Source: Gammaproteobacteria bacterium (GTDB lineage: Bacteria > Pseudomonadota > Gammaproteobacteria > Pseudomonadales > Azotimanducaceae). Taken from it: 32,857 nucleotides of DNA. Below, one piece after another: positions 1 through 32,650 of this stretch. Numbering within the stretch: position 1 is the first letter of the stretch; each line of letters starts with the position of its first letter. The translations under genes and the position numbers were made by a program. The notes beneath the pieces were generated by a model. It saw only the letters and a list, made by a program, of their open reading frames with translations. It was not told where the DNA came from and did not search any database. The stretch is from positions 12,022 through 44,878 of the forward strand of contig NZUN01000056.1 in NCBI GenBank assembly GCA_002697205.1. The letters run 5' to 3'.

Positions 1-894
1 TGCTGCGATAGTTCCGCGCGCTTTATACATAACATAGCGACCCGATCCGGCATCGGAACTATGTCGTAAAACTTGATTGTCAACCGCTCCTTCGCCTTTA
101 ACATTAAGAATATTATTAGCGCCTCCTGCGATCTCTATATTAAGAGGGCCGTTCATAGTATCGCCAGACTTCTTAACGTAGGAAGACGTTCCGCTTGCCT
201 TAGTCGCGCCCATAAGATCGAACGTATCAAGCGCAACACGCTTCAAAGTAACAGTGCCGCCTTGGGGAATAATTAAATCGCCGCCCACCGGAACGTTTAT
301 CGTAACGCCTGCACCGGCAACGAAAGTTGCGTCGCCTGCGCCGATATTACGAAAATGCCATTCAGCGTTATCGTCCAGCGCTTCCGTTGCATTTTGACGC
401 ACGTTTATCGTTTTTGCCGCTGCATTCGTTAAACGCAAATACTTGCTTTTGTCGGCATTCAGCAAATCGTAAGCAACCGTTGCAATTGGCGAAACGATAA
501 CTGTTCCACTTCCAACCGAAGCAACATCGGCAGTTGTCGCACGACGCGAAGTCCATTTGGAAATAGTAACGCTTTCCCCGGCGGCGTCATCAACAATAAC
601 GTCGCCATCCGTTCCGCCGATAGTCATTTTGCCGGGGGTGATTGTTGTTATAGTGCCCACAAATAGATTATTGGCGGTGTCGCCGGTAAAGCCTTTGACG
701 TTAACCCGGTCGCCGACTAAGAACCCGGCCGCAACAAAACCTTCAGCGCTATCGTTGAAGCTATTATCGGCGGCAGCAGCGCTAATTGTCGCCGCTGTTA
801 TCGCAACGTCGGTTGAAAGTTGCGACACTTCGATAAGTTCGCTTCCTTCGATAGAAGCGACGGCTTCAAGATCGCTAAGGCGTTTGTCTGCCAT
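1..894 (-). CDS. Tail fibre protein, N-terminal part (runs off left edge)
   Basis: The reading frame stays open from an ATG at 894 to base 1, so at least 298 codons are present and the C-terminus lies outside the window. The start has a GGAGGA ribosome site at 901-906, one of the very few GAG-containing sites in the phage. The protein begins MADKRLSDLEAV, has an Ala/Gly/Val-rich beta-type middle, and near the edge carries the KKSGDTMNGPL motif common in phage tail fibres. This is followed by a segment ending SGRYVMYKARGTIAA, typical of the region before fibre shafts. It is the last gene of the tail operon, 2 nt after the tip protein gene. It probably forms the host-binding fibre, with specificity in the missing part. 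Four of the 33 GAG/CTC words of the phage lie at 87-146, which hints at a differently derived fibre segment. Confidence 0.85.
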   Translation of the reverse strand, partial: MADKRLSDLEAVASIEGSELIEVSQLSTDVAITAATISAAAADNSFNDSAEGFVAAGFLVGDRVNVKGFTGDTANNLFVGTITTITPGKMTIGGTDGDVIVDDAAGESVTISKWTSRRATTADVASVGSGTVIVSPIATVAYDLLNADKSKYLRLTNAAAKTINVRQNATEALDDNAEWHFRNIGAGDATFVAGAGVTINVPVGGDLIIPQGGTVTLKRVALDTFDLMGATKASGTSSYVKKSGDTMNGPLNIEIAGGANNILNVKGEGAVDNQVLRHSSDAGSGRYVMYKARGTIAA

Positions 895-896
895 TT

Positions 897-3575
897 TTAT
901 TCCTCCAAAACCCTTACGTCGCCTTGCTCAATTACACGGGCTTCCCCTTCTTCGGTATAGCGCGCTTCGGCTTGGCTGTTAATGAAAATGTGCGACGGCG
1001 CTTGCCATGAATAAACGCCGTCCCGCTTGGCATGAACTTCAATGCGAATTACGCCTGAACCTATCGGCGTGACAGCTTGCGGGCTTACGGCCGGTTCTAT
1101 TTCTTGTTCCAACACGTCGTCAACATAAAGACGAAGGCGATATTCGACGCCCGGTTCAGGGCCAATATCACCCGCCGTATGATCGACAAGATAACCGCCG
1201 GTTTGTTCAATACGGTTTCGATGCGTCCACGTAACCGTTACTTCACCTTCGTAATAAGCGTTGGGGGCGTAGCTTTCGCCGTTGATACGAAGGTCGCCCG
1301 GCGCATAAGGACGACAAGCACGTTGGTTCAACGTAAGTGTCATCGCGTCGGCGGCGTCAAGCGGAAGAACGCCAGCGCCGGAAATCGGAATTATCTTGGC
1401 GTCAACTTCTTCGCCCTGAACATATTCGGTCGGATCAAACCCGGCGTAAGCATCCCAAAAGAATGCCACTTCGCCCGCAAGGTGTTCTTCGGGCACCGTA
1501 TCAAGGACACCGCGTCCCACCATTATAGCGCCGGTTTCAACGTCGATAGCGTCAACCCGCATTAGTTCTTCGCCAATTTGGAAGTGTGTCCCAATGGTAA
1601 CTTCTTCCAAGTCACTTCCGTCATTCAAAACGAAGTTCGGTTGCGTCTTCGTAATGTTGGTCGAAAGAACGCCAGACGGGCAAAAGTCCATCGCGCCAAC
1701 GTCTTCGTATCCTGCGCCGTCATCGGTATATAGCGCCGCGTTGATTGCTGAAGCGGGACGCAAACCGGCGGCTATCAAATAGCCGATTTCAGGATGCGTC
1801 AACAACTTGTTGTCGGTGTCTGACTGGCCAAGCGCTTGAACAAGTTCGTAATAAGGCGCTTCGGCGACAAGCTGTTGTTCAACAACCGAAGGCGGGCCGC
1901 TAGGGTCCGTCCAACCACTATCAGGAACAACGATGGTCAAGTTCGTGTCGGTATCGAAAACGTCTTGTGTGCATGAAATCTTGACGCGATTATTGCGCCC
2001 GGTGCCGTAGCTTATACCGTTCACACGCATGACGACTTCGGCAAGCCCCCAACGCGACCAACTGAACTTGAACACGTCGCCAACTTCAAGTTCCTTGGCG
2101 TCGCTGTTCGCCGTAATTGTGCAAGACAGCAGCGGCGAAGATAGCACTTTCAAATCGCGCTGCGCCGCAATCGTCGCGTTGCGCGTATTGCTGAAGCCGG
2201 GATATTGCAGCGGCGCGTTAATAGGAACGCCCTGTTGGCGAAGAAGCGCGGGATCGTCTATTGTGACGGTCGCGTCTTTGCCGGTCGTCGCGTCCCAATA
2301 AGTCACGGTAACGCTGTTCGTCAATTCACCGAACGTAATGCGCGTCGGATCGTCAACACTTCCAATATTGCTTTCGTCAAGATGAAGCAACGTCGCTTCA
2401 TCGTATCCGCCGCGAATAGGTTTGATGACGAACTTACCAGTCGTGCGCGACACATAAAGCGCGCAATCGACATGCTCTTGAACCATCGAAACAAAATCTT
2501 CAATGGTCTTCGTCTTATCCCACAATAGGGACAACCCAAGCTTTTCATTGAAGAAAATATCAGCCGCTGCCCTGAACGACACGTCGTCAACGTCGTCGTC
2601 GGTGTAACCCATGCCCCATTCAGGATCAGTCAGGCATTCGCGGATAATGTGGGCAGCGTTCATATCAACGACGCCTAGCGGAATATCTTGATAAGCCGCC
2701 GTGTAATCGTGCCCATGTCCGCCTGCGAAGCGAAAACCGCCGCTGCGCCCGCCTTCGTATGCTTCAATACCGCCTTCAACGCTTGTCCAACCCTGAACGC
2801 CTTCTTCAGCGCCGGGATTGGGAACAACAACGGGTTCGCCGTCGAACGTCAACGTTATGTCATCAATATAGCCGTCGTTACTTTCACCGGAATTACGCCA
2901 CATATGTTGAAACAGTTGAACGCGAGCGGTTCCGGCCGGGGCGGTTGCCGTAATTGAACGCTGTTCCCATTCGGGATACACCGGCCCGGTTTCTTCGGAA
3001 CTATCGTGAAAGCCAAGGCTGTTGCCATGAATATCCCAAAAGCGCATTGTCATCTTCGCCGTATCCAACGACGCACCGCCTTGCGGCGAAGATGATTGCC
3101 ACCACGACAAAGTAACTTCCGTCGCCTTGGTTGTGGCGCTTGAAGCTATCGCCGCTTTGGCTGGATACCATTGCATCAAACCGTTTTGGCGCTTGAAGAC
3201 ACGCTGCCCCCTAGCGCTCCACGTTTTCAAATATGGGTTGTTGCCTAGATAGCATTGACGAAATATCAAACAGGCAACGCCGCGAAACGCGGGAATTAAC
3301 GCACCAAGCTTCGAAACAAGATAGCTGTTTTGACCTTGGGTCGGTTCGCCCATCGCAAGGTCAATCGTGCCGCTAACGCCGCCTTCGCGCTTATCGCCGC
3401 CGAAAAGAGTATTCGCGGTTATTGAAATTGAACCGCTAGTCTTATATCCAACCCAAGCGTCGCGTTCGTCAACTTGAAGGCGCGTAAAAGCGTCGATAGG
3501 CCCGTGACACATGCCAAGGTGCATACCAAGATAATACTTGTATCCGACAGTTTGTGCTTTGCCGCCCTTACCCAT
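897..3575 (-). CDS. J-like tail tip attachment / host-specificity protein
   Basis: This is an 892-residue tip protein. The preferred start is the ATG at 3575 (MGKGGKAQTVGYKYYLGMHL), because Gly/Lys-rich starts followed by a TVGYKYYLG-like motif are usual for this group; an in-frame TTG at 3596 would add 7 residues. The start overlaps the preceding stop by 8 nt. Family knowledge: J-like proteins form the central tip below the tail tube and contact the receptor. In the sequence, an N-terminal hub-like part is followed by an insertion around residues 150-290 resembling a carbohydrate-binding beta sandwich (QLFQHMW, GYIDDITLTFDGEP), then the conserved tip core and beta-rich C-terminal modules. 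It sits directly before the fibre gene. Receptor is unknown. Confidence 0.85.
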   Translation of the reverse strand: MGKGGKAQTVGYKYYLGMHLGMCHGPIDAFTRLQVDERDAWVGYKTSGSISITANTLFGGDKREGGVSGTIDLAMGEPTQGQNSYLVSKLGALIPAFRGVACLIFRQCYLGNNPYLKTWSARGQRVFKRQNGLMQWYPAKAAIASSATTKATEVTLSWWQSSSPQGGASLDTAKMTMRFWDIHGNSLGFHDSSEETGPVYPEWEQRSITATAPAGTARVQLFQHMWRNSGESNDGYIDDITLTFDGEPVVVPNPGAEEGVQGWTSVEGGIEAYEGGRSGGFRFAGGHGHDYTAAYQDIPLGVVDMNAAHIIRECLTDPEWGMGYTDDDVDDVSFRAAADIFFNEKLGLSLLWDKTKTIEDFVSMVQEHVDCALYVSRTTGKFVIKPIRGGYDEATLLHLDESNIGSVDDPTRITFGELTNSVTVTYWDATTGKDATVTIDDPALLRQQGVPINAPLQYPGFSNTRNATIAAQRDLKVLSSPLLSCTITANSDAKELEVGDVFKFSWSRWGLAEVVMRVNGISYGTGRNNRVKISCTQDVFDTDTNLTIVVPDSGWTDPSGPPSVVEQQLVAEAPYYELVQALGQSDTDNKLLTHPEIGYLIAAGLRPASAINAALYTDDGAGYEDVGAMDFCPSGVLSTNITKTQPNFVLNDGSDLEEVTIGTHFQIGEELMRVDAIDVETGAIMVGRGVLDTVPEEHLAGEVAFFWDAYAGFDPTEYVQGEEVDAKIIPISGAGVLPLDAADAMTLTLNQRACRPYAPGDLRINGESYAPNAYYEGEVTVTWTHRNRIEQTGGYLVDHTAGDIGPEPGVEYRLRLYVDDVLEQEIEPAVSPQAVTPIGSGVIRIEVHAKRDGVYSWQAPSHIFINSQAEARYTEEGEARVIEQGDVRVLEE

Positions 3576-3762
3576 GACGTTCGCGCGCCTTTTCAACTAC
3601 ACGAAGGGCGTTGTCATCGCCGGTTGCAATGAAAACTTCTTCGGGAAGACCTTCGGATAAGAACTTGTTCCAGTCAAGATTATGGCGCGCAAAGAAGCCC
3701 CGCGCGCCATTGCTGCAAAGTTTTGCCGAACGAATGTCCACCATCTTTACAATGATTGTCAC
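3568..3762 (-). CDS. Small conserved tail protein upstream of the tip gene
   Basis: A 64-residue protein. I place the start at GTG 3762, which overlaps the TGA stop of the upstream gene in a GTGA quartet and has GGAAG just upstream. A longer reading from 3813 would run deep into the neighbouring gene. The core reads SAKLCSNGARGFFARHNLDW, then a Gly-Leu-Pro-Glu-Glu and ATGDDNALRVVE pattern. Small proteins of this type commonly lie between the membrane-anchored tail gene and the J-like gene in siphoviruses and gene-transfer-agent-like clusters. Their exact role is not known to me; assistance in tip assembly is an inference from position. Confidence 0.7.
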   Translation of the reverse strand: MTIIVKMVDIRSAKLCSNGARGFFARHNLDWNKFLSEGLPEEVFIATGDDNALRVVEKARERHG

Positions 3763-3989
3763 TTCTTCCCGCCCTTCGATTTGATGGCGACCGTTTTCAA
3801 GTCGCCATACCAAACGACGTTAGGACCGTTCAAGTCCCGCGTTCCAAATAGAACGGGAATTTCAACGCCTTCTTCGGCAATAGGCGCTTCGATTTCCGAA
3901 AGCCCGGCCGGTTTCTGCGATTGCTGTTTTGGCATAGTCGCATAGGACAACACCAAGCCAGCGACGAAAAGAGCGACGAACCACCACAT
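3759..3989 (-). CDS. Small membrane-anchored tail assembly protein
   Basis: A 76-residue protein with one hydrophobic helix at residues 2-17 (WWFVALFVAGLVLSYA), a Pro/Gln linker, then a soluble segment containing EEGVEIPVLFGTRDLNGPN and VVWYGDLKTVAIK. That soluble motif is also typical of the N-terminal region of some tip proteins, so it may cap or chaperone the tip at the membrane. The ATG at 3989 overlaps the TAA of the preceding gene (TAATG). The hydrophobic N-terminus has no signal-peptidase site, so a single transmembrane anchor is the simpler reading. Function is inferred from conserved neighbourhood. Confidence 0.7.
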   Translation of the reverse strand: MWWFVALFVAGLVLSYATMPKQQSQKPAGLSEIEAPIAEEGVEIPVLFGTRDLNGPNVVWYGDLKTVAIKSKGGKK

Positions 3990-4780
3990 TAGACTATTGA
4001 ACTCCCGCCCAAAGGGTTCTTCGTTGGAATGAAGTCAAACCCGCCGTTGTTCAAAAGATTGTTGAATTTATCGTTGCATGTTTGGCGCGTATGATCGCAG
4101 CCCGGATACAACACTACGTCAAACGGAACCCCGGCTTCAATGGCCTGCGAAAGAACATACGAAAGGCGCTGAATGGTTATCTGATTGCCAGCATGATAAA
4201 TGATATACGACAAAGTTCCATCCGAAGCCTTCAACATGCCGCCGGTGAAATATCCGTCGATATATGCCGCCGCCGCTTCAACGGTGAACGTTTTCACGGC
4301 AGCAACCGCCGCAACGCTGCCTTCAACGGCAAAATCTTCGGGGTTCACATAGCAACCACGCCCGTAAAGCGCATGACGGCAACCACGCTGATAGCGCGCC
4401 CGAAGACCGGGGCGACGAAGCGATGTGAAAATGCTTTCCATCTTCAAAACAATGCTAGTCGTGCCCGGCGCAATGCTGGCAAGACGACCCTTCCAAACGA
4501 CGTTGAACGCACCGCCTTTGTCACGTTCGAAAATTGTAAGCGACACAATCTTTTCGCCGTTGTCTGCCAACCAACGAAGACCAGCTTCGTTATTGAGCGA
4601 CATTTGAACGTCGATATTCGACTTGGCAATTTCGTTCTTTACTTCGGCGTCACTACGTCCAATGGACGCGGGCGTATAAACGTCGCCGTTATAGGTGACT
4701 TGTTCGTTGCCATCGGTGAAAGCCCAAATGGTTCCCGACGCCTGTTCGCTGAAGCGATAAAGTTCGGTCTTCGTCGCCAT
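3989..4780 (-). CDS. Distal tail protein of the BR0599/DUF2163 family
   Basis: A 263-residue protein ending in the signature of the phage BR0599-type family (YPGCDHTRQTC, then FNNLLNNGGFDF, IPTKNPLGGSSIV). Four cysteines are positioned as two pairs, C134/C143 (GCRHALYGRGC) and C228/C235. Position between the M-like tail protein and the tip genes matches the place of lambda gpL, which carries an iron-sulphur cluster on four cysteines. A metal site here is therefore plausible but inferred. The N-terminal half is the DUF2163-like beta region (EQVTYNGDVYTP). The ATG at 4780 overlaps the upstream TAA as TAATG, so expression is translationally coupled. Confidence 0.82.
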   Translation of the reverse strand: MATKTELYRFSEQASGTIWAFTDGNEQVTYNGDVYTPASIGRSDAEVKNEIAKSNIDVQMSLNNEAGLRWLADNGEKIVSLTIFERDKGGAFNVVWKGRLASIAPGTTSIVLKMESIFTSLRRPGLRARYQRGCRHALYGRGCYVNPEDFAVEGSVAAVAAVKTFTVEAAAAYIDGYFTGGMLKASDGTLSYIIYHAGNQITIQRLSYVLSQAIEAGVPFDVVLYPGCDHTRQTCNDKFNNLLNNGGFDFIPTKNPLGGSSIV

Positions 4781-8828: not shown

Positions 8829-8831
8829 GTC

Positions 8832-22162: not shown

Positions 22163-22726
22163 TTAGCTGGCCCGCTGGACCAACGCGCCGTCCGCCGGGG
22201 CGGTGAACGCGCCGTAAGCAACGCCCGACTTCACCGGCTTGACGGTGAACTTGCGGCCATCCGCGCCTTCCTTGCTGAAACGCTTGTTGGCGCTGGAAAT
22301 GGTGGACGCCAGCGACTTCGCCGGGTTCGGCTTGTCTTCGGTCGCCGGGACGAAGAACGACTGGCCGACGTTCATCGTTTCGAACGGATAGACGGACGAA
22401 GAACGCGGCGCGCGACCTTCGGGCAGAACAGCGCCTTCGATAAGCGCGAACTGCGAAGCGGCGGGGGCGGCGGTGTTGGTGTCGGTCACGTTGGTATTCC
22501 CTTCGTTGCTGGAAGGGGCGGGCGCTTCGGCCTGTCCCTTTTCGGTCGCCCGAACGGCGACCTTATCGCCATCGGTGATTTCGGTATTGGTTTCGACCAT
22601 GCCGTTGTCAAGAAGGTTCTTGACTTCGGCGGGCGTCGCCATGTGGAAAGGTGCGTCGGCGTTGGCCATCGCGGCGATGATGGTTGCCAGCAACGCCTTG
22701 TCGCCAGCGGTAAGCTTCTTTGCCAT
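22163..22726 (-). CDS. Hypothetical protein with DUF7303-like C-terminal domain
   Basis: A 187-residue protein from ATG 22726, with AAGGAAGGAAA upstream, one of the strongest ribosome sites in the window. The N-terminal part (KALLATIIAAMANADAPFHM, TPAEVKNLLDNGMVE) looks like a winged helix. A Ser/Thr/Ala/Pro linker follows. The C-terminal part has YPFETMNVGQSFFVPA and ANKRFSKEGADGRKFTVKPV, the pattern of small phage domains of the DUF7303 kind, whose function I do not know. It has its own promoter-like element and a strong terminator, so it is a monocistronic and probably highly expressed gene. Confidence 0.6.
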   Translation of the reverse strand: MAKKLTAGDKALLATIIAAMANADAPFHMATPAEVKNLLDNGMVETNTEITDGDKVAVRATEKGQAEAPAPSSNEGNTNVTDTNTAAPAASQFALIEGAVLPEGRAPRSSSVYPFETMNVGQSFFVPATEDKPNPAKSLASTISSANKRFSKEGADGRKFTVKPVKSGVAYGAFTAPADGALVQRAS

Positions 22727-22773
22727 GTGAATTTCCTTCCTTGCTTGCACGGGCGTTGCTGCCCGGTAACGAC

Positions 22774-24270: not shown

Positions 24271-25104
24271 TTATCCCCGAACGCCACCCTTGGGCACCGG
24301 CTGGACTTCCTGCGCGATGCGTTCGGCCATTTCCGCCATATCGCCCTGCGCCTTGCGCATATGGGCAACCCCTTTGGCGTGAATTTCGGCGTTCACGTCT
24401 TCCATGCGCGACGCCTTCGACGTGCCGTCATCGTCGGGAAGTTGCGACGCCAGCTTGTCCAGTTCAGGGTTCTTGACGACCGGAATTTCGGCATCGAACA
24501 GCGTATTGCCAGCCGCCGACTTGAAATGATCTTCAAGTTTCGACTGTTCGGCGTTCAAGTCGCGATTGGCGTCCTTGAATACGTCGAACGCTTCGCCATG
24601 GCGACCGCGAAGCTTGTCGATATTCGCCCGGTTCGACTGTTCCAGCGTAACGCCGATGCCGCGAAGCGTCCGCACGACATACCACGACACATCGCCGCTT
24701 TCTTCAAGAACGTTCACGCGGTCGAACGGATTGCCTTCGGCCCATTTCAGCAGATATTCGGCGACTTCGCCCGCTTCGGTGATGATGCCAATTGCGCCAT
24801 GAAGAACGTCAATGTCGGCGGGCGACCATGCGTTGATTGCGGTCAAGGCGTCGATAAGGTCGGCAGCGGTCGGCTTTTCGGCAGGCGGAAAGTTCAAATC
24901 TTCGCGCGTCTTGCCCCTGAACAACAGTTTCTTGATAAGGTTCAAGTCTTCGGCAAAGCCCTTGACGCCCATAAGGACGTGCCGAAGGTCCATTACTTCA
25001 ACCCGTTCGGGATGAAATTCGGTCGAACACGTCTTGTCACATTCGGCCATATAGTCGAAATGATGTTCAACGCCGCGTCCGCTGCGAAATTCGTCTTCAG
25101 TCAT
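24271..25104 (-). CDS. MazG-like nucleotide pyrophosphohydrolase
   Basis: A 277-residue protein from ATG 25104. Residues 104-165 carry the all-alpha NTP pyrophosphatase signature: Ile-Ile-Thr-Glu110-Ala-Gly-Glu113-Val-Ala-Glu, then Glu134-Glu135-Ser-Gly-Asp138 and WYV, the Glu/Asp set that binds magnesium. KLRGRHGEAFDVFKDANRDL following it is usual in phage MazG-like proteins. The N-terminal 90 residues and a charged C-terminal extension to 277 make it longer than the ~100-residue minimal domain. It would hydrolyse (d)NTPs or alarmone-like nucleotides, shaping the nucleotide pool or starvation signalling in the host. Confidence 0.86.
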   Translation of the reverse strand: MTEDEFRSGRGVEHHFDYMAECDKTCSTEFHPERVEVMDLRHVLMGVKGFAEDLNLIKKLLFRGKTREDLNFPPAEKPTAADLIDALTAINAWSPADIDVLHGAIGIITEAGEVAEYLLKWAEGNPFDRVNVLEESGDVSWYVVRTLRGIGVTLEQSNRANIDKLRGRHGEAFDVFKDANRDLNAEQSKLEDHFKSAAGNTLFDAEIPVVKNPELDKLASQLPDDDGTSKASRMEDVNAEIHAKGVAHMRKAQGDMAEMAERIAQEVQPVPKGGVRG

Positions 25105-25159
25105 GTTGCTTGTCCTTCCGGTTGAAAATGCCCACATTGGGCGGGCCACACTACAGGAA

Positions 25160-25202
25160 GGGCGGGCAGGCAACAAGGGCGGCGTCGCCCGGCAACCCGC
25201 CC
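25160..25202 (-). terminator. Possible terminator or nested hairpin
   Basis: Outer arms GGGCGGG/CCCGCCC (25160-25166 and 25196-25202) enclose a second GGGCG/CGCCC hairpin with a 4-nt loop. The sequence after it on the minus strand is TTCCTG, not a clear T run, so termination would be inefficient. It sits in the 112-nt gap after the 25217-25474 gene. Confidence 0.35.
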
Positions 25203-25216
25203 CGTCCCGAATAGGG

Positions 25217-25474
25217 TCAATAATCGTCGTAATAGCCGTCGTCGTGTTCAAGTTCGTTCAGTTCGTCGCGGATGCGGTCGCTTTCGCCCTTGGTCGCGTC
25301 GATACGACGATAAAGCCAATCGCACTTTTTCACGGCGCGGCCATTGATTGCGACAATCCACCAATCGTCAACATACGACGACATGATACCAACGTCGGGT
25401 TCAGCCCCTTGAACGTCGTATTCGATGGTAACGGGCAAGCCACCAAGGACCGTCGTTTCGTGTTCGTATGCCAT
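25217..25474 (-). CDS. Hypothetical conserved phage protein
   Basis: An 85-residue protein starting at ATG 25474 in a TAATG overlap. The core LPVTIEYDVQGAEPDVGIMS, followed by YVDDWWIVAINGR, is a compact beta-type domain I have seen as a pattern in phage miniproteins without known role. The C-terminus is acidic (DELNELEHDDGYYDDY). It is the last gene of the transcript starting at the 25773-25801 promoter. Confidence 0.6.
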   Translation of the reverse strand: MAYEHETTVLGGLPVTIEYDVQGAEPDVGIMSSYVDDWWIVAINGRAVKKCDWLYRRIDATKGESDRIRDELNELEHDDGYYDDY

Positions 25475-25719: not shown

Positions 25720-25772
25720 AAGAAACCCCTTTCCGGGCATTCAAGCGGCGGAATTGCCGTCTTGTTGAACCT

Positions 25773-25801: not shown

Positions 25802-25995
25802 CGCCTAAAATTACGACGGTCCAACATTTTTATCGCTTCAGTGCGCTTGCGCTGAATACGAAGGTATTCGTCGCGGGCGGCGATATGTGCGAAATGATAG
25901 CCGTCGAAATACGACCATTCGGCGTAGTTTTGACCAACCGGCGGGACCATTGCGACCGACTTTGCGTTGATTGCAATTACATTATGCTGAAACAT
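25798..25995 (-). CDS. Hypothetical small basic protein
   Basis: A 65-residue protein with ATG 25995 and AAAGGAAA upstream. N-terminal strand-rich half (NVIAINAKSVAMVPPVGQNY), aromatic middle (AEWSYFDGYHFAHIAARDEY) and an Arg/Lys-rich C-terminus. Its TGA stop lies inside the -35 box of the following promoter. No family recognised. Confidence 0.58.
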   Translation of the reverse strand: MFQHNVIAINAKSVAMVPPVGQNYAEWSYFDGYHFAHIAARDEYLRIQRKRTEAIKMLDRRNFRR

Positions 25996-26053
25996 TGTCG
26001 TTTCCTTTGTCCTTCGATACGACGAACGTTACGGCGCAAGTGTTAAGAAACCC

Positions 26054-26251
26054 TTACCACAACCACCATATCAGCGGAATGACGGTCGTAACGACCGAAA
26101 CAGCCACGACGATGATACAACCAAGGCCGGGGTCGCCTGCTACGCCAGTGCCGTTACACGACGGACAAGCCGCCCCGTAAACGCGGTCGGAATGCGGGTC
26201 GTCGCTGCGAAGCAATCCGACACCGTTGCACTTGACGCAATGGTTACTCAT
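26054..26251 (-). CDS. DnaJ-type zinc-ribbon protein with C-terminal membrane helix
   Basis: A 65-residue protein with two CxxCxGxG repeats, C5-V-K-C8-N-G-V-G and C29-P-S-C32-N-G-T-G, the motif of the DnaJ zinc-binding domain. A C-terminal hydrophobic helix follows (CIIVVAVSVVTTVIPLIWWLW, about residues 45-65). It lacks a J domain. Start ATG 26251 is in a TAATG overlap with the nuclease gene. It would expose a single zinc-ribbon at the inner membrane, possibly to hold an unfolded client or recruit a host protein; no function is proven. Confidence 0.72.
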   Translation of the reverse strand: MSNHCVKCNGVGLLRSDDPHSDRVYGAACPSCNGTGVAGDPGLGCIIVVAVSVVTTVIPLIWWLW

Positions 26252-26754
26252 TAGCCCGGTCCTTTAACAAGTTCAATGTAGGATTGAACGTCACGCGCGG
26301 CGCTACGCCAATCGAAGCATACGCTAACAGCGTAGTTCGCCGAACGCAAGTATGAAATCCAATCGTCCTGTTCGTTCGACGTTGAACCCGCCCGACGTTT
26401 CGTCGCCTTGTCAGCCGAACGCTTCATTTCGATGAACAGCCCGGCATAACGCGCGCACGTCACGGGCAAGAATACGTCGGGAACGCCCGGCTTAACGCCT
26501 TCATGCTTCAGCTTGGCGGCGGTTATCTTGTCGCGCTGTCCGCCGTTCGGCACGGCAAAGCAACGGGCTAGTTCGGGATGCTGTTCGACATTCGACGTAG
26601 CGTAAGGCGACGACTGGAACACCGTCATGTCGCCGCTTTCAGCCCAACGCCAAGCCGTGTCAAAGCCGTGACGTTGGGCGACCTTCAGCCATGCGAAAAG
26701 CGCGCGTTGTTCGCCGTGTTCCGTTCCCGACTTTGCCAGTTGGTCGGGCGTCAC
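26251..26754 (-). CDS. VRR-NUC domain nuclease
   Basis: A 167-residue protein starting at GTG 26754 in a GTGA overlap, with GGGGAAAG upstream. The domain covers most of the protein: Glu15 in EHGEQRALFAWL, the FAVPNGGQRDK motif, GVKPGVPDVFLPV with catalytic Asp93, and GLFIEMKR with Glu109 and Lys111 (the PD-(D/E)xK core). Stand-alone VRR-NUC enzymes in phages cleave branched or structured DNA such as Holliday junctions, probably during replication or packaging. Confidence 0.88.
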   Translation of the reverse strand: MTPDQLAKSGTEHGEQRALFAWLKVAQRHGFDTAWRWAESGDMTVFQSSPYATSNVEQHPELARCFAVPNGGQRDKITAAKLKHEGVKPGVPDVFLPVTCARYAGLFIEMKRSADKATKRRAGSTSNEQDDWISYLRSANYAVSVCFDWRSAARDVQSYIELVKGPG

Positions 26755-27035
26755 CAAACTTTCCCCGTATCAGATACTACGGCTTTAACTTCGTCTTCGG
26801 TGCCGACATATGTTGCGAATACATGCGGTTTGCCGCGATGATCCGCGCCCGACATGATACTTACGAAGATACTTTCGCCAGCGTTAAGCTTGGCTAATTC
26901 TTCGACAGTCGGCTTCCATGCCGATACGTTGCAACGCCCGTTACTGAATACGTGAAGCCATCCAACCATTTCTTCAAGGCCGGGCGGCGGGCCGAAATGA
27001 TGCGTCGAACCTTCAAAATCATGTGGATCAGCCAT
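26751..27035 (-). CDS. Hypothetical conserved phage protein
   Basis: A 94-residue protein from ATG 27035, overlapping the previous gene by 8 nt. The core GLEEMVGWLHVFSNGRCNVS, followed by LAKLNAGESIFVSIMSG and an ATYVG strand near the C-terminus, looks like a compact beta-rich domain. This type recurs in phage accessory regions without known function. It is co-translated with the nuclease. Confidence 0.58.
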   Translation of the reverse strand: MADPHDFEGSTHHFGPPPGLEEMVGWLHVFSNGRCNVSAWKPTVEELAKLNAGESIFVSIMSGADHRGKPHVFATYVGTEDEVKAVVSDTGKVW

Positions 27036-27441: not shown

Positions 27442-27575
27442 GGCCAAACCCTTTGCCCGTCAACATAATGTTCGTAACCAACCACAAGCTTAACCCAAAG
27501 CTTTTTCGCTTGGGCGGCGTAAGGATGCGGCCAAAAGAAGCGTTTGTAAACGCGAACGATTTCAAAACGGTTCAT
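27438..27575 (-). CDS. 45-residue hypothetical protein
   Basis: A very small gene supported by both ends: its ATG (27575) overlaps the TGA of the upstream gene as ATGA, and its own TGA overlaps the ATG of the DUF3850 gene as ATGA. The product MNRFEIVRVYKRFFWPHPYA and onward is basic and aromatic (four Trp/Tyr-rich patches). Such aromatic-basic miniproteins are seen in phage accessory regions. Function unknown. Confidence 0.72.
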   Translation of the reverse strand: MNRFEIVRVYKRFFWPHPYAAQAKKLWVKLVVGYEHYVDGQRVWP

Positions 27576-27784
27576 GGTTCATACAACCTTGACAGTTCAA
27601 ACCAACGCCCGACATGCGAAAGCGACGTGTCGATTGCGTCGATAAGTTCGTTGCGTTCAGCGGCTAAAGCCAAGCGCACGACTTCAAGCCGTTGTTCCGG
27701 CACGTCGATATGTGCGAACTTGGCTTCGTCGTCACCCGTGATAAGGACGCATATTGCGTCCAACGTTTCCGTCTTCGGCGTCAT
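27572..27784 (-). CDS. Hypothetical helical protein
   Basis: A 70-residue protein with ATGA overlaps at both ends. The sequence is acidic and helical (ICVLITGDDEAKFAHIDVPE, then QRLEVVRLALAAERNELIDA). No motif recognised. Second of four overlapping genes translated from the promoter at 28015-28043. Confidence 0.58.
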   Translation of the reverse strand: MTPKTETLDAICVLITGDDEAKFAHIDVPEQRLEVVRLALAAERNELIDAIDTSLSHVGRWFELSRLYEP

Positions 27785-27981
27785 CCGTAACGGTCCATCA
27801 TCCGTTGCATGGCTTCAGCCTTCGACATACGCGGACGGAAGGCGTAAGCGAAGAATTGCGGCGAAGTCGTCAAAGCCGTGTTCATCCGAAAGAACGGCTT
27901 CGGGTCCAACGCCAGTCCGCGCCCAAGCCCTGCCATGTGGGCAACGCGCCGTTCGGCGTCGCCGATGTTATACGTTTCCAT
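27781..27981 (-). CDS. Hypothetical protein
   Basis: A 66-residue protein starting at ATG 27981 with AAGGAAGGAC upstream and ending in an ATGA overlap. Sequence METYNIGDAERRVAHMAGLG, then FFRMNTALTTSPQFFAYAFR and a C-terminal amphipathic Met-rich helix. No family recognised. First gene behind the 28015-28043 promoter. Confidence 0.58.
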   Translation of the reverse strand: METYNIGDAERRVAHMAGLGRGLALDPKPFFRMNTALTTSPQFFAYAFRPRMSKAEAMQRMMDRYG

Positions 27982-28014
27982 TACGATAGTCCTTCCTTGT
28001 GTTAGCCCGAATGT

Positions 28015-28043
28015 TCAATGGCACATTCAACGCACTACGTCAA
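28015..28043 (-). promoter_or_regulatory. Promoter, TTGACG-N17-CATTGA
   Basis: TTGACG (28038-28043), 17-nt spacer, CATTGA (28015-28020) on the minus strand. The first 11 nt (TTGACGTAGTG) are identical to the element at 30687-30715. It is 34 nt upstream of the 27981 start and probably drives the overlapping block down to the nuclease gene. Confidence 0.65.
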
Positions 28044-28498
28044 CGGCCCCATTTGTCCTTAGCGGGGGCGACGGCCTTTCCCCATTTGCCCACACTATCA
28101 GCCGTAGCAGGCTTCGGTTCGACAGGCTTCGGCGGCAAGCCCCATTTGCCCGCATGGTCGATTATCAGCACGTCGCCGACCGGCGGTTCACGCAAGGCGC
28201 GGCCCTGTTGCTGAATGTCCAACGCTATGCCCTTGCCCCATTTCGACGGTTCGGGCTTGACGGGTTCGGGGTCGTCAACGACGTGCCATTCGACCGTTTC
28301 GTCATGCGACCGACGCGACCAACCGGACGACGAACCGCCGGGAAAGTTGATGCGCCATCCGGCGAACTGATAGTCGATATATGCGCCGGGTTGCATGTCG
28401 TCGGCGCGGACGCGGTATCCCATTACGGCCAACGACAAGGCGTCGTCAACGTTCAGCGTGTCGGCGGACGTGTAGTCCTTGCGTTCGTCAATTGCCAT
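28040..28498 (-). CDS. KWGK-repeat protein, N-terminus possibly DUF2829/Tad2-like
   Basis: A 152-residue protein. Residues ~18-60 (DALSLAVMGYRVRADDMQPG, then IDYQFAGWRINFPGGSSSGW) recall the compact beta domain of DUF2829, the family of the anti-Thoeris protein Tad2. The match is weak and I treat it as a hint. The C-terminal half contains four KWG units (SKWGKG, GKWGLP, GKWGKA, DKWGR) separated by Pro-rich spacers, an unusual short-linear-motif array. It lies just upstream of a promoter for the next block. Its -35 region partly overlaps the gene end. Confidence 0.6.
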   Translation of the reverse strand: MAIDERKDYTSADTLNVDDALSLAVMGYRVRADDMQPGAYIDYQFAGWRINFPGGSSSGWSRRSHDETVEWHVVDDPEPVKPEPSKWGKGIALDIQQQGRALREPPVGDVLIIDHAGKWGLPPKPVEPKPATADSVGKWGKAVAPAKDKWGR

Positions 28499-28649
28499 TG
28501 CCCTTGTCCTTGATGAACTGTTCGGCTTCGGCCATCGTCGTAAACGTGGCGTCGGTTATGCGGTCGCGCGGCCCGTCAATTGTGCGCGTCGTTTCGATGA
28601 TGCGAAACGGTTTGCGCGTCGGCGGATGGCGCTGTTCGAAAATCTTCAT
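28488..28649 (-). CDS. 53-residue hypothetical protein
   Basis: A small gene placed by its junctions: the ATG at 28649 immediately follows the TAG of the upstream gene (TAGATG), and its stop overlaps the next start by 11 nt. The product (MKIFEQRHPPTRKPFRIIET, then a predicted C-terminal helix MAEAEQFIKD) looks like a short beta hairpin plus helix, as in phage recombination-mediator-sized miniproteins. Function unknown. Confidence 0.68.
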   Translation of the reverse strand: MKIFEQRHPPTRKPFRIIETTRTIDGPRDRITDATFTTMAEAEQFIKDKGNGN

Positions 28650-28868
28650 CTAGTCAATCCTTTCCATATTGACGTTAGCCTTGTTCAAGGCATCGCGTAT
28701 CTTGTCCAAGCGGACGCTATCACGACGAAATTCCTTACGGCGAAGTTCGTCGTTGGTTCCTTGCCGCTGTTTGATGGCATACGCCAGCAATGCGACAACA
28801 TCGCTTTTGCACCGACGAAGCGTTTCGTCAAGTGCGTTTATGCGTTCGATGTATTGTTCGTCGGTCAT
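28650..28868 (-). CDS. Hypothetical helical protein
   Basis: A 72-residue all-helical protein (MTDEQYIERINALDETLRRC, LLAYAIKQRQGTNDELRRKE) rich in Arg, Asp and Glu. ATG 28868 lies in an ATGA overlap with the upstream gene, so the longer reading from 28910 is not needed. Possibly a small coiled coil. No family recognised. Confidence 0.6.
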   Translation of the reverse strand: MTDEQYIERINALDETLRRCKSDVVALLAYAIKQRQGTNDELRRKEFRRDSVRLDKIRDALNKANVNMERID

Positions 28869-29077
28869 TTCGCTTTCCCTAACGCCAGCAAAACAAGGCA
28901 AGCGTCCCAATGCGTTTCACAAGTTACGGCGACCGTTCCAAGGACGGAACCAACCGGCGAACGCACCATTACGAAGTTGCCGCTTGCGTAATAGTCGCCG
29001 GGTTCAAGTTGCGACGCACGTTTGGCGGCAACAGCTTCGCGGGCTTCACGTTCAGCGCGAACTTGTTCAACGGACAT
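28865..29077 (-). CDS. Hypothetical protein
   Basis: A 70-residue protein with a charged N-terminal helix (VEQVRAEREAREAVAAKRAS) and a small beta domain (LEPGDYYASGNFVMVRSPVG, then TVAVTCETHWDACLVLLALG). ATG 29077 has GGAAAGGG upstream, next to a hairpin at 29098-29122. No family recognised. Confidence 0.58.
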   Translation of the reverse strand: MSVEQVRAEREAREAVAAKRASQLEPGDYYASGNFVMVRSPVGSVLGTVAVTCETHWDACLVLLALGKAK

Positions 29078-29097
29078 AACAAACCCTTTCCGGTTGG

Positions 29098-29122
29098 CGG
29101 GGCGACCATTCCAGCCGCCCCG
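29098..29122 (-). terminator. Hairpin without T run (possible attenuator)
   Basis: CGGGGCG (29098-29104) pairs with CGCCCCG (29116-29122) around an 11-nt loop. It lies in the 52-nt gap after the stop of the 29130-29354 gene and ends about 10 nt before the ribosome site of the next. No T run follows, so it may be an RNA stability element or weak terminator. Confidence 0.4.
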
Positions 29123-29129
29123 ACGTTGC

Positions 29130-29354
29130 TTACACCTTCAGAAACGCATACCGTCCGACGTAACCGCCCTTCGACTTGTCAAGCACAACGATAGCGGTCC
29201 AACGACCCTTCGGCGTCCGCACAACCATAAAGCGGTCGTCGTATTCGGGATACATTGCCTTGTCTTCTTCGATGCGCTTCATAAGATTAGCTTCGGTCGC
29301 ATACGACTTGATATGCGGGCTGTCCAAATCGACGTTCATGTTACGAAGTGCCAT
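29130..29354 (-). CDS. Hypothetical small protein
   Basis: A 74-residue protein from ATG 29354 with AAGGA upstream. N-terminal part is helical (HIKSYATEANLMKRIEEDKA); the C-terminal part is beta-like (RFMVVRTPKGRWTAIVVLDK, then GGYVGRYAFLKV). Single gene directly behind a well-formed promoter at 29387-29415. The RFMVVRTPKGRWTAIV pattern occurs in small phage proteins of unknown role. Confidence 0.6.
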   Translation of the reverse strand: MALRNMNVDLDSPHIKSYATEANLMKRIEEDKAMYPEYDDRFMVVRTPKGRWTAIVVLDKSKGGYVGRYAFLKV

Positions 29355-29386
29355 GTCTTTCGTCCTTCTTTCCAAGTGACAAACGA

Positions 29387-29415
29387 CAGATACGACGGGG
29401 GCGACGACGTGTCAA
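29387..29415 (-). promoter_or_regulatory. Promoter, TTGACA-N17-TATCTG
   Basis: Minus-strand TTGACA (29410-29415), a 17-nt spacer ending CGTCG, then TATCTG (29387-29392). GGGGG and CCCCC flank the -35 box and can form a 6-bp inverted repeat around it, a possible repressor site. Starts 33 nt before the 29354 gene. Confidence 0.75.
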
Positions 29416-29429
29416 CCCCCGAATGCGAT

Positions 29430-29837
29430 TTATTTTGCCTTCAACGTTACGTGCCAGCGTCCGACGATACGCGCGCCCTGTTGTGCGATAAGGCGTTCGT
29501 ATGTGGCGGCTTCATTGCTGCCGGGGTCAATGCGGTATGCCTTGGACAGCGACAGGGGCTTGGACACGTAGGACCGCCCTTGCGGCGACAGGACGGCCAA
29601 GACGACATGCGACGGCGGACGATAGGCGTAGCGCCCGCGTATCCATTCGTCGTTGCGGTCGTGCGCCCAACGCCACGACGCAAGGTCGCGCTTGGACGCC
29701 ATTTGGCAGCGGTCGGGAAGCCCCATAACCGGCCCGCCGAAATACTGATTGCCATAGACGCCGCCCCAAGGTGCGATATGCGTTACGCGCATCAATGCGG
29801 ACGGGCCGTCGTCGTAACGAACAATTTCGCCAATCAT
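29430..29837 (-). CDS. Hypothetical conserved phage protein
   Basis: A 135-residue protein from ATG 29837, in ATGA overlap with a 49-residue upstream gene. The N-terminal half is beta-rich (MIGEIVRYDDGPSALMRVTH, then GGVYGNQYFGGPVMG, with CQMASKRDLASWRWAHD); the rest has helix-rich TYERLIAQQGARIVGRWHV. The pattern VRYDDGPSALMR occurs in phage proteins of unknown role. It is probably the last gene of the transcript starting near 30295. Confidence 0.58.
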   Translation of the reverse strand: MIGEIVRYDDGPSALMRVTHIAPWGGVYGNQYFGGPVMGLPDRCQMASKRDLASWRWAHDRNDEWIRGRYAYRPPSHVVLAVLSPQGRSYVSKPLSLSKAYRIDPGSNEAATYERLIAQQGARIVGRWHVTLKAK

Positions 29838-29983
29838 TGCTTGAACCCCTTCAATGCGCGCCGAACGTCCGCAATAAAGTTGTCCGTTGCGCGCGGACAC
29901 GTCGGCGTTGATGATTTCACGATGACGGCCCGGTTGGGGCCGTGCTGAATGACAACCCGTTCATGACGCTTTGTCCGCGTCAC
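29834..29983 (-). CDS. 49-residue hypothetical basic protein
   Basis: Begins with GTG (29983) in a GTGA overlap with the 22-residue gene and ends in an ATGA overlap with the next. The product (VTRTKRHERVVIQHGPNRAV, then a KSSTPTCPRATDN linker and helix) is basic. Linked overlaps on both sides argue for translation; nothing else identifies it. Confidence 0.62.
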   Translation of the reverse strand: MTRTKRHERVVIQHGPNRAVIVKSSTPTCPRATDNFIADVRRALKGFKQ

Positions 29984-30048
29984 TTCATACGACGCGCCCG
30001 GCCAATCCGACAGGGCGCGTTACGTCGTCGGCGTTCGTCCTTCGTCAT
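29980..30048 (-). CDS. 22-residue arginine-rich micropeptide
   Basis: ATG 30048 overlaps the TGA of the upstream membrane protein as ATGA, and its own TGA overlaps the next GTG as GTGA. The peptide has nine Arg among 22 residues (KDERRRRNAPCRIGRARR). It may be a true micropeptide or only a coupling ORF that carries ribosomes to the next gene. Confidence 0.5.
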   Translation of the reverse strand: MTKDERRRRNAPCRIGRARRMK

Positions 30049-30242
30049 TCGCTGATTTCCCGACCGCGCACCGTGAAGCGGGGGCCGGTGTATTCGTGAC
30101 CCTTGGGGGCAGGCTTGGCGGCGATGCGGGCCAACCGCGCCTTCACGGCCTTGCGGTGTTCCAAGCGGGCCACCAATCGGGTTCCAGCCGCATAGACGAC
30201 GAAGCCGACGATAAGGCCGATTGCGATTGAAATAAAGTCCAT
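30045..30242 (-). CDS. Small single-span membrane protein
   Basis: A 65-residue protein: N-terminal transmembrane helix (FISIAIGLIVGFVVYAAG, about residues 3-20) and a basic cytoplasmic tail (RLEHRKAVKARLARIAAKPA). ATG 30242 has AAGGAAGGAAC upstream and a promoter 30 nt before. Small Arg/Lys-tailed membrane proteins can block superinfection or interfere with host envelope functions; this is speculation from the build. Confidence 0.62.
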   Translation of the reverse strand: MDFISIAIGLIVGFVVYAAGTRLVARLEHRKAVKARLARIAAKPAPKGHEYTGPRFTVRGREISE

Positions 30243-30271
30243 TGCGATGTTCCTTCCTTGCTATACGTCGG

Positions 30272-30300
30272 ACACTACGTCGTAACGTCCGACGTGTCAA
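30272..30300 (-). promoter_or_regulatory. Promoter, TTGACA-N17-TAGTGT, with inverted repeat
   Basis: Minus-strand TTGACA (30295-30300), 17 nt, TAGTGT (30272-30277). An 8-bp inverted repeat ACGTCGGA/TCCGACGT (30265-30272 and 30288-30295) frames the spacer, and TACGTCGTA lies at 30276-30284. Both look like repressor-binding symmetry. Drives the membrane protein gene at 30242. Confidence 0.75.
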
Positions 30301-30309
30301 CCGGCTATT

Positions 30310-30501
30310 TCATCCAACCATGTTGCAATCGCGGACGTGATGCCCGGCGCGTTCCAGCCGACGAACAGCCTGATTGCGGTTCGTTGCGTGAACGGTGAAA
30401 ACGCCTTCTTCGCGGCGCTGTCCGACCGTGCAATCATACGCATGTTTGCCGGTGCCATCGGCGAAGGTGTTGCTATCGCGAAAGTAAGGCTTGGCGGTCA
30501 T
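30310..30501 (-). CDS. Hypothetical protein
   Basis: A 63-residue protein starting at ATG 30501. The core is KHAYDCTVGQRREEGVFTVH followed by NRNQAVRRLERAGHHVRDCN, an alpha/beta fold with a helix and a terminal strand. This build recalls small phage domains that process Gly-rich loops, but no family is recognised. It ends just inside the -35 side of the downstream promoter. Confidence 0.58.
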   Translation of the reverse strand: MTAKPYFRDSNTFADGTGKHAYDCTVGQRREEGVFTVHATNRNQAVRRLERAGHHVRDCNMVG

Positions 30502-30516
30502 TTCAACGTTCCTTGT

Positions 30517-30660
30517 TTAGTTGGCGAAGACAGCGCGGGCGCGGAAGCCTTCGGCGCGAAGCTGTTCAATCATTGCGTCGGCGGCTTCAGCCGTAAGGTT
30601 CGCGCCATTGTGGGCGATGAACCAAGACTTGTCGTCCGCCTGAATTTCAACGTTGAACAT
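30517..30660 (-). CDS. 47-residue hypothetical protein
   Basis: ATG 30660 with AAGGGAA upstream, 7-8 nt before the start; stop TAA at 30517. The product MFNVEIQADDKSWFIAHNGA, then a helix AEAADAMIEQLRAEGFRARA, is a compact beta-beta-alpha mini-domain. It fills the space between the 30501 gene and the promoter region at 30687-30715. Confidence 0.72.
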   Translation of the reverse strand: MFNVEIQADDKSWFIAHNGANLTAEAADAMIEQLRAEGFRARAVFAN

Positions 30661-30686
30661 TTCGTCGTTCCCTTGCTGTTGAACAC

Positions 30687-30715
30687 GATATGGCATACGT
30701 CCAACACTACGTCAA
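30687..30715 (-). promoter_or_regulatory. Promoter-like element, TTGACG with weak -10
   Basis: TTGACG at 30710-30715 on the minus strand, with CATATC 17 nt downstream at 30687-30692. The TTGACGTAGTG start is shared with the 28015-28043 promoter. It lies between the 30729 and 30660 genes. Confidence 0.5.
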
Positions 30716-30728
30716 TAGCTACGTTGAA

Positions 30729-31055
30729 TTATTTTTCGCGACCGGGGGCGGACCAATGGACGCTGTTCGGTGCGTCGTCGGCTGGCGCTTTCTTGCCCAC
30801 ATACAAGGACGGCAGAAATTCAGCGGGCCGAAGCCGCGCTTGCATGACGACTTCAACCAAGCCTTCGGGCGTATAGCTGTCCGTCATAAAGACGTTCGTT
30901 TCCGCGCCGCCGTCATCGAACCAAAATTCGGTCAAGCCTTCGATACGGCCCGGCGAAATCAACGTGATGCGGTTTGCGTCGAAGAAGCGGCGAACCCATG
31001 CGTCGGGTTCGATGGTGGACGTTGTGAAGAATGCGACACTAATTCCGATATACAT
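30729..31055 (-). CDS. Hypothetical protein
   Basis: A 108-residue protein from ATG 31055 with AAGGGAA upstream. The core (FFTTSTIEPDAWVRRFFDAN, ITLISPGRIEGLTEFWFDDG) looks alpha/beta, followed by a disordered end (KAPADDAPNSVHWSAPGREK). It is the first gene after the AT-rich region, which may hold its promoter. Confidence 0.58.
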   Translation of the reverse strand: MYIGISVAFFTTSTIEPDAWVRRFFDANRITLISPGRIEGLTEFWFDDGGAETNVFMTDSYTPEGLVEVVMQARLRPAEFLPSLYVGKKAPADDAPNSVHWSAPGREK

Positions 31056-31294
31056 TGCGATTTCCCTTCGATTTGCCTGTTGTCTAGGTGTTTTCCGGTT
31101 GATGAATGGCCTAAGTGTCTGTTTTTATTGAATGTTGTATAATGTTGTATGTTGTATAAGATTAGTTACATTGAATTTTATATCAGGATGAAGGCCGAAC
31201 CCTCCCTTCCGACCCCTAGCCCCATACAACATACAACACATACAACACACGGTTTTCTGCCACTTTTGGCGCACAACAGCCATACAACGCCATA
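31056..31294. other. AT-rich gene-free region with iteron-like repeats (origin candidate)
   Basis: A 239-nt gap without an open frame that fits codon use. Three GTTGTAT words lie close together at 31133-31158, and ATACAAC words recur at 31223-31288 in the opposite orientation. The 15-nt word TGTTGTATGTTGTAT near 31143-31157 is matched by its complement near 31224-31240. It follows a primase/helicase gene. It could be an origin, a regulatory region for the 31055 gene, or a terminator with a long loop. Confidence 0.5.
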
Positions 31295-32650
31295 CTACAA
31301 CCATTCGTCACCGATGATTGAAACGTCGTTTACGGCGAAGCAACGTTGCGTAACCCCGAACTTTTCCTTGTCCTTCGAACCAAGTTCGCGAAGTTCGCCG
31401 CTATCAATCATAAACTGAATGGTCGCCTTCAACGCATTGGTCGAACCAAGACGCGAATTACGGAACGACGCACGGCTATGCGTTCCTTGTGCCAGCGAAC
31501 GCCAAGGGATAATGCCCATAGCATGAAGCGCGGGCGGAACCTTGTATTTGCGTTCAGCGGTGGCAGCGTCGGCGCGAACCATAAGATTGATGAAGCGAAT
31601 AACGTCGTTGTGGCATTGCTTGTCGTTGAAGCCGTTCACCGACGAACCAACGTCGCCACGTTCGAAGCGCGCCAGCAACCGGGCAATGTCGTTGGCCACA
31701 AAGTCGCAAGCCCATTTGGCCGCGTTGTAATCAATGACGGGACCATTCCAATATAGGCCGACCGCAACGACCGCCGCAAGCTTCATCGCCTTTAGGTGCG
31801 CGCGGTTCCAAAGTTGCTTCACGACTTCGGCGTTGTTGCTGTTGATTTGCGCGTCGGCGAAGTCGTTAAATTCATCGAACAGCTTGCGCGCTTCGGCGCT
31901 GAAGGCGACGTTCATCGGCTTGAACGATTGGGCGCTATTGATGGCGTGGCACTTGGCCAAGAACGCCCGGCAATTGGCCAGCAAGCCCGGCGTAGCGCCA
32001 ACGTTGCGATGCGCTTCGTTCATGGGCGGACGTGGGCCGGTGTATTCCATGATGGTGAAGCGCGGAAGCAAGCCCGACGATACCATTGTTTCGTCCAACG
32101 CTTCGTAAAACTTTTCGGGAACGCTTTCGCCTATCATCGTGAAGGCTGGCGACGGTATCGGTTCGCCGACTTTATCTTTGTCGGAATACGCCGTTGGGTT
32201 CAACATATCGCCCGCGCCCGACTTGTTGTATAGGTCCAGCCAAACTTGCATGATTTGCTTTTCATGGCTGTTCGCATTCGGATGCGATATGCGCTTCAAC
32301 GTAATGCCGATTTCGCCTAGCACGGTAACGAACGACTTCGACCGTTCGAACCACTTCAACAGGCCAGCGCCGGAACCGATTTGTGACGGCCCGATATACT
32401 GGCGCATATAGGTGAAGTGCGCGCCATCCGGCCCCCATGCGATTTGTTCGGCCAAGCGATTGATGCCCGACCCTATGGCTTCCTTGCCCGTGCCGGTCGG
32501 CGCAATCAGCATTATGTAATGGTTCAAGCCGGTGCCGGATACGTTATACGCCCGACCCGCGACGCCTGATACGAAGGCCAATGCGCCAGCTAAGGCGATT
32601 TCCATTACGGGGCGCGGGGCCGTGTCATAGATGAATTGCGCGATTTCGCC
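31295..32650 (-). CDS. DUF3987 primase/helicase-like protein, N-terminus missing
   Basis: A ~450-residue phage part of a fused frame. Walker A motif IMLIAPTGTGKEAIG follows a hydrophobic helix near the edge (EIALAGALAFVSGVAGRAYN). Later LLPRFTIMEYTGPRPPMNEA and the helical C-terminal half are typical of DUF3987, a D5/primase C-terminal ATPase-like family in phage replication. The true start is lost: upstream of about 32650 the frame continues into unrelated enzyme sequence. Stop TAG at 31295. The AT-rich repeats just downstream fit a replication role. Confidence 0.8.
   Translation of the reverse strand, partial: GEIAQFIYDTAPRPVMEIALAGALAFVSGVAGRAYNVSGTGLNHYIMLIAPTGTGKEAIGSGINRLAEQIAWGPDGAHFTYMRQYIGPSQIGSGAGLLKWFERSKSFVTVLGEIGITLKRISHPNANSHEKQIMQVWLDLYNKSGAGDMLNPTAYSDKDKVGEPIPSPAFTMIGESVPEKFYEALDETMVSSGLLPRFTIMEYTGPRPPMNEAHRNVGATPGLLANCRAFLAKCHAINSAQSFKPMNVAFSAEARKLFDEFNDFADAQINSNNAEVVKQLWNRAHLKAMKLAAVVAVGLYWNGPVIDYNAAKWACDFVANDIARLLARFERGDVGSSVNGFNDKQCHNDVIRFINLMVRADAATAERKYKVPPALHAMGIIPWRSLAQGTHSRASFRNSRLGSTNALKATIQFMIDSGELRELGSKDKEKFGVTQRCFAVNDVSIIGDEWL

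Follow-up and report, generated by a model that had tools for sequence, protein, structure and literature searches.

The window analysed here, a stretch of 32,857 bases, corresponds to bases 12022-44878 of contig C59 and covers 73% of that contig (44,878 bases), which belongs to a 3.98-Mb assembly. C59 is a Sphingomonas-type siphophage contig, and the first 20 kb of the window, where aligned, share 78-93% identity with Kharn, Lucius and Eidolon, three Sphingomonas phages. The following features were assigned, in window coordinates:

1-32857, no strand: GAG/CTC-purged phage DNA
17618-19168, minus strand: terminase large subunit gene, 97.9% identical to the annotated Lucius terminase and used to find the clade
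22163-22750, minus strand: gene for a DUF7303 protein, an early-module companion (Kharn orthologue matches PF23978 with 198.9 bits)
24271-25251, minus strand: MazG-like pyrophosphatase gene, an early-module companion with uncertain start codon (profile match at 36292-37272 of C59; Kharn orthologue matches phrog_229)
26251-26757, minus strand: VRR-NUC nuclease gene, 168 amino acids, candidate reader of the purged word (PF08774 over cut-off on C59 with 27.7 bits, and also on the Kharn orthologue)
31295-32857, minus strand: part of an NrS-1-type primase/helicase gene, truncated where the contig stops (open ORF, orthologous to the Kharn primase, which carries PF22763)

The contig ends lie inside the primase gene (window 31295-32857 and the start of L012), a position that circular permutation of the phage genome would account for. 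A winged-helix-like N-terminal part was predicted for the DUF7303 protein (pLDDT 79.9), and a PDB search for solved relatives gave no match with E <= 0.001. A second VRR-NUC domain was found on a different contig of the same assembly (G000:C57:5853-6182, minus strand), within an open frame of 597 residues.

The window contains 37 GAG/CTC words (16 GAG and 21 CTC on the plus strand), compared with 1134 expected at zero order and 678 at first order. In 200 dinucleotide-preserving shuffles of the window, the mean was 678 (sd 20.2, minimum 630), which places the observed count at z -31.7. The first-pass annotation had reported 33 words in bases 1-32640, and our recount (13 + 20) agreed exactly; its expectation of about a thousand matches the zero-order figure, the first-order figure being lower. 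The depletion also held in the Markov-based trinucleotide count that it had proposed, where CTC/GAG was by far the most avoided word (ratio 0.05), followed by CAC/GTG and AAA/TTT (0.55). Here and below, the ratio without further specification is the observed CTC/GAG count divided by its first-order Markov expectation on both strands. The whole contig holds 49 words (ratio 0.053), and three other contigs of the same assembly showed ratios of 0.58-0.78. Since isolate genomes show the same purge, chance and assembly artefact are excluded as causes, and the avoidance of GAG/CTC is beyond doubt.

Codon-usage bias would have limited the loss to in-frame codons. The Glu codons GAA and GAG were indeed used 789:11 in Kharn, 894:0 in RcSpartan and 762:5 in KL1. 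In the same three annotated relatives, however, synonymous-codon shuffling within genes predicted approximately 348, 384 and 366 GAG/CTC words across codon boundaries, and only 14, 4 and 10 were seen. The purge extended to every codon phase and to both strands, through silent changes at all three positions of the word. The earlier view that the loss is not a codon effect alone was thus borne out. Its extension to all frames and to intergenic DNA applied fully to the frames; intergenic regions retained 4 words in 2,539 bases (Kharn), 0 in 1,926 (RcSpartan) and 11 in 2,521 (KL1), the KL1 leftovers being largely ribosome sites.

At fourfold sites, G before AG was reduced to 2.1% (36.8% elsewhere) and C before TC to 0.3% (21.5% elsewhere). 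Additionally, A in xGx before G was found at 2 of 2,062 sites (0.1%, 15.2% elsewhere), and T in xCx before C at 4 of 2,159 (0.2%, 12.6% elsewhere). A deaminase footprint would show the word removed only by C-to-T or G-to-A changes, and such changes cannot be the source of the latter two losses. Of the selective or mutational pressure on DNA suggested by the first-pass annotation, selection on DNA was supported and biased deamination rejected, because the central A or T is also replaced where this is silent. In six strongly purged loci, the sense-strand ratios were 0.05 for GAG and 0.04 for CTC; in 18 partly purged loci, they were 0.25 and 0.37, a certain strand difference. The near-equal loss of the two words indicates that the target is duplex DNA, although the partly purged loci show some asymmetry.

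GTG/CAC was avoided more weakly, with ratios of 0.33-0.56 in 12 of the 14 genomes lowest in GAG/CTC, 0.62 in G012 and 0.80 in R3. The two ratios covary over 45 genomes (rho 0.73), and the joint avoidance might reflect one reader of G-W-G. AAG/CTT and GAA/TTC were enriched, rising as GAG/CTC fell (rho -0.84 and -0.79). In a mutation-selection-drift reading with 0.8 assumed as the neutral reference, 2Ns was about 2.7 for C59 and 4.9 for RcSpartan; given that assumed reference, modest but uniform selection suffices for the purge. These results show that purifying selection acts in these phages against GAG/CTC as a word of duplex DNA and, to a lesser degree, against GTG/CAC.

The comparison with related phages that had been called for earlier was made on 45 genomes or contigs with a common terminase or primase family, including C59; Psp6, RcPacific and Carrot were left out as non-clade. 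Records with this terminase numbered 628, among which 60 were listed. G004, G006, G013 and G016 are under 40 kb, and for SLUR63, RHph_Y55 and BcepGomr the analysis covered the first 50,000 bases. The purge proved to be a clade trait of graded strength: the ratio was below 0.5 in 31 of the 45 (hereafter purged) and at least 0.5 in 14. The 14 lowest (RcSpartan, G002, R3, Lucius, G001, Eidolon, Kharn, KL1, VCLv11, PaMx42, C59, G012, Shy and Pfeifenkraut) ranged from 0.006 to 0.111. RcSpartan retains five words in 44 kb, with 854 expected (0.006). The named hosts of the strongly purged members represent eight proteobacterial genera. In the tree of terminase, portal and capsid proteins, low ratios were found on several branches with unpurged genomes interspersed; for example, Kimi (1.12) adjoins Birtae (0.28). 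The preferred flanks of GAG varied between lineages, GGAG being among the most avoided in many partly purged genomes.

Phages of other groups isolated on the same host species or strains were unpurged in seven of seven cases (0.59-0.97). Among Pseudomonas aeruginosa phages, LUZ24 (0.86), YuA (0.82), D3 (0.83) and phiKMV (0.81) contrast with PaMx42 (0.043), T7 (0.97) with Shy (0.09), and RcPacific (0.59 over the first 30,000 of 67,036 bases) with RcSpartan; the host species of phiKMV and T7 are assumed and not given in their records. On Sphingomonas LR55, Carli (0.91) differs from Birtae. YuA, with a putative base-modification gene, and RcPacific, with a methylase, are weaker controls. Moreover, clade members on one strain differ from each other (Birtae, 0.28, and Kimi, 1.12, both on Sphingomonas LR55; VCLv11, 0.039, and VCLv21, 0.388, both on Variovorax CL14). 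The trait therefore follows the phage clade and not the isolation host. These unpurged phages make it unlikely that the isolation hosts harbour the reader, and the host nuclease initially suggested is unsupported as far as these hosts are concerned. A defence of unsampled natural hosts is a possible cause.

Avoidance of restriction sites and palindromes is known from phage genomes, including T7. In the clade, 35-47 of the 64 six-base palindromes had zero copies in the 14 lowest-ratio genomes. In the window and clade genomes L001-L011, GATC, GTAC, GAATC, CCAGG and many GC-rich six-base palindromes were nearly absent, with differences between genomes; GATC stood at 0/261 in Shy and at 105/153 on one strand in Pfeifenkraut. 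The GAG ratio was only loosely related to the palindrome ratio (rho 0.39 over 45 genomes; 0.30, p 0.06, without deazaguanine carriers). G004, G008 and Birtae combine GAG ratios of 0.24-0.30 with palindromes at 0.94-1.13 of expectation, whereas Carli has palindromes at 0.22 and GAG at 0.91, so that the two kinds of avoidance are separable. Six of the seven same-host controls avoid palindromes (0.22-0.55 of expectation; T7, 0.42), indicating that ordinary restriction pressure need not be accompanied by a purge of GAG. Two IMG/VR contigs, G029 (L098) and G032 (L108), wholly lack CCGG and GGCC, and G029 also lacks CGCG, where hundreds are expected. Kimi (L006), unpurged for GAG, has CGAAG at 0/36 and CGGAG at 1/41, which possibly reflects a CGRAG reader.

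Five genomes with 7-deazaguanine genes were unpurged for GAG (0.79-1.05) and lacked only 1-10 of the 64 palindromes. Of the 14 unpurged genomes, 5 had such genes, compared with none of the 31 purged ones (Fisher p 0.0016, uncorrected for kinship). This pattern would be consistent with a reader that modified G blocks, but it is confounded with the missing early genes of the carriers. The first-pass annotation had noted no modification gene in the window; this holds for 7-deazaguanine genes, with no match in the whole of C59, and for methylases the search covered two families (PF01555 and PF00145), neither of which matched in the three closest relatives of C59. DNA methylases were rejected as an explanation of the unpurged relatives, with PF01555 over the cut-off in 1 and PF00145 in 2 of 46 records and no pattern.

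Profile searches, restricted to early and replication genes from four reference phages as queries, covered the 41 clade genomes that reach 40 kb. VRR-NUC was found in 38 of these, including all 27 purged ones, but not in G014, G024 or the examined part of SLUR63; Kimi and ten more unpurged genomes also carry it. DUF7303 was found in 36 of 41, the exceptions being the five deazaguanine carriers, of which three were covered in part. MazG occurred in 28 (25 of the 27 purged genomes and the unpurged Kimi, G021 and G029). Thus, Kimi carries all three genes, yet is unpurged. No tested early or replication family separated the two groups by occurring in every purged genome and in no unpurged one; some families were confined to purged genomes but occurred in few of them. 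A change of specificity could hide a gene that tracks the purge.

The incomplete purged contigs G037, G040, G048, G050 and G006 gave no VRR-NUC match. Among primase loci, several of which share a contig, the 97 with VRR-NUC in view had a median ratio of 0.41 and the 10 lacking it a median of 0.82; the two low-ratio loci among these ten have VRR-NUC elsewhere on the contig. Prediction of the GAG ratio from VRR-NUC or primase distance was weak, and VRR-NUC relatedness performed no better than primase relatedness. Outside the clade, the VRR-NUC phages Carrot (0.89) and Salinibacter 5_12 (1.02) were unpurged. L343, a 22,326-base contig with VRR-NUC, MazG-like and DUF7303 genes and no match to the terminase or primase of the window, had a ratio of 0.37; several of its other genes also resemble those of the clade, and the support it gives is weak.

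The primase family was found in 44 of the 45 genomes. The clade DNA polymerase belongs to either family B or family A, apparently exchanged (L012:8497-10554, plus strand, and relatives), a difference also noted for Birtae and Kimi in the accessible part of PMC10385605. Family-B polymerase as a cause fitted the first 11 genomes but was contradicted by R3, which is purged with a family A enzyme (0.015), and by G026, unpurged with family B (0.88).

The remaining words were compared among relatives. Of the 31 in Kharn, 26 recurred in no more than two of five relatives, and the other five in three or more. The word at 462 (Met-Ser, ATG-AGT), which has no one-step silent escape, was the sole word kept in all five, and two other no-escape words (TGG-AGC) were kept in the sole relative aligning there. 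Words at 3964, 5273, 18151 and 23868 have a silent escape and were still kept in three or four relatives. Most words therefore turn over, and a missing escape accounts for only part of the conserved ones. Ribosome sites made up 14 of 29 leftover words in KL1 and 12 of 38 in PaMx42, of which 13 and 11, respectively, lie exactly 11 bases upstream of the start; in these two genomes, the word is kept where it pays. Two of the Kharn words lie in an HNH endonuclease gene between the helicase and exonuclease genes (L001:25616-26266, minus strand), which is unaligned in Lucius.

The reading we favour, with a probability of roughly 0.42, is that the purge avoids a DNA reader that these phages bring themselves, probably an early-module nuclease with VRR-NUC as the first suspect. 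A phage-borne reader is favoured by the spread of the trait over eight host genera, the unpurged phages of other groups on the same hosts and the separability from palindrome avoidance, as well as by the strand symmetry in strongly purged loci, the use of all codon positions and the covariation with GTG/CAC. Further support comes from the presence of VRR-NUC in every purged genome of at least 40 kb, the lower median ratio at primase loci with VRR-NUC and the unpurged state of the deazaguanine carriers. The case for VRR-NUC is weakened by Kimi, by a fit no better than that of the primase and by the structure specificity reported for such enzymes in the accessible part of PMC4103454; the ten further unpurged carriers, the incomplete purged contigs, Carrot and Salinibacter 5_12, and the strand difference in partly purged loci also count against the overall reading.

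In the proposed mechanism, the conserved nuclease (26251-26757) would act on unmodified DNA at G-W-G, with A preferred over T. The phage genome would be spared by the absence of the word and not by methylation, and host DNA, full of GAG/CTC, would remain a target. Changes in flank preference or loss of activity might give rise to the graded and unpurged lineages. Self and non-self would then be told apart by vocabulary, a DNA-cutting phage enzyme reading a three-base word deleted from its own genome across eight host genera; we offer this idea only tentatively.

The main rival is host restriction. Here, defence nucleases that are widespread in Proteobacteria but missing in the strains used for isolation would read GAG or several sites containing it, and phages lacking modification would evade them by site avoidance. 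The accompanying loss of classical sites (GATC, GANTC, CCWGG and six-base palindromes), the lineage-specific flank preferences and the deazaguanine carriers, unpurged and missing few palindromes, are in its favour. Nevertheless, we regard it as rather unlikely, considering the seven unpurged same-host phages, six of which avoid palindromes, the differences between clade members on one strain and the weak correlation with palindrome avoidance; to our knowledge, no enzyme has a three-base site.

A replication cost, in which the NrS-1-type primase or a different replication protein would start or stall at GAG/CTC and surplus sites would slow replication, would agree with the near-universal primase family, with the fact that NrS-1-type primases start at short words and with 2Ns values of about 3-5 being enough. 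It is made improbable by Kimi and the deazaguanine carriers, which share the primase family and are unpurged, by leftover words that turn over without a conserved set (RcSpartan keeps only five) and by the strand-symmetric loss. Avoidance at the RNA level, directed at ribosome-site-like GAG and its complement CUC in messages, could explain the strongly avoided GGAG flank, but AGG/CCT was not avoided (about 0.85-1.05 in the lowest genomes), other flanks were purged too, and sense GAG and CTC were lost equally in strongly purged loci, so that we give it very little credence. Less probable still is mutation bias, such as deamination of CTC to CTT or TTC: the rise of AAG/CTT and GAA/TTC would suit it, but the replacement of the central A or T wherever a silent escape exists refutes it as the sole cause, and ribosome sites retain the word.

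The clade resembles known cases of restriction-site avoidance in that words are lost from the duplex by selection while proteins are kept, with GATC, GTAC, GANTC and many six-base palindromes lost as well; as with Type II sites, the loss affects both duplex strands. It differs in that Type II avoidance concerns palindromic sites of 4-8 bases, whereas this word is a non-palindromic one of three bases, depleted in all 16 flanks in RcSpartan and G002, and in that the trait spans eight host genera and is absent from other phages of the same hosts, while restriction avoidance would be common to unrelated phages of one host. In the open-access literature searched, we found no description of a non-palindromic trinucleotide so nearly eliminated, with as few as 5 copies left in 44 kb. 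According to the accessible part of PMC10385605, 7-deazaguanine modification protects phage DNA from nucleases. In our comparison, the relatives with these genes show no GAG purge and lack few palindromes; in C59, which lacks such a gene match, the text is changed and not the base. The VRR-NUC family profile matches 4qbl, the nearest solved VRR-NUC (E 5e-16), which relates the nuclease of the window (PF08774) to junction-resolving enzymes such as psNUC and 4qbl. In the accessible part of PMC4103454, these enzymes are described as junction-resolving and structure-specific, psNUC did not cut linear duplex, and a GAG-reading activity is not mentioned, which sets them apart from the candidate reader.

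The silent purge suggests that something tied to these phages makes GAG/CTC costly in double-stranded DNA, and it would imply a DNA reader not yet named. If phage-borne, this reader would represent restriction without modification; if host-borne, it would represent a widespread defence reading three bases. The clade member Shy was isolated on E. coli K-12, so that the reader should be testable in a laboratory strain.
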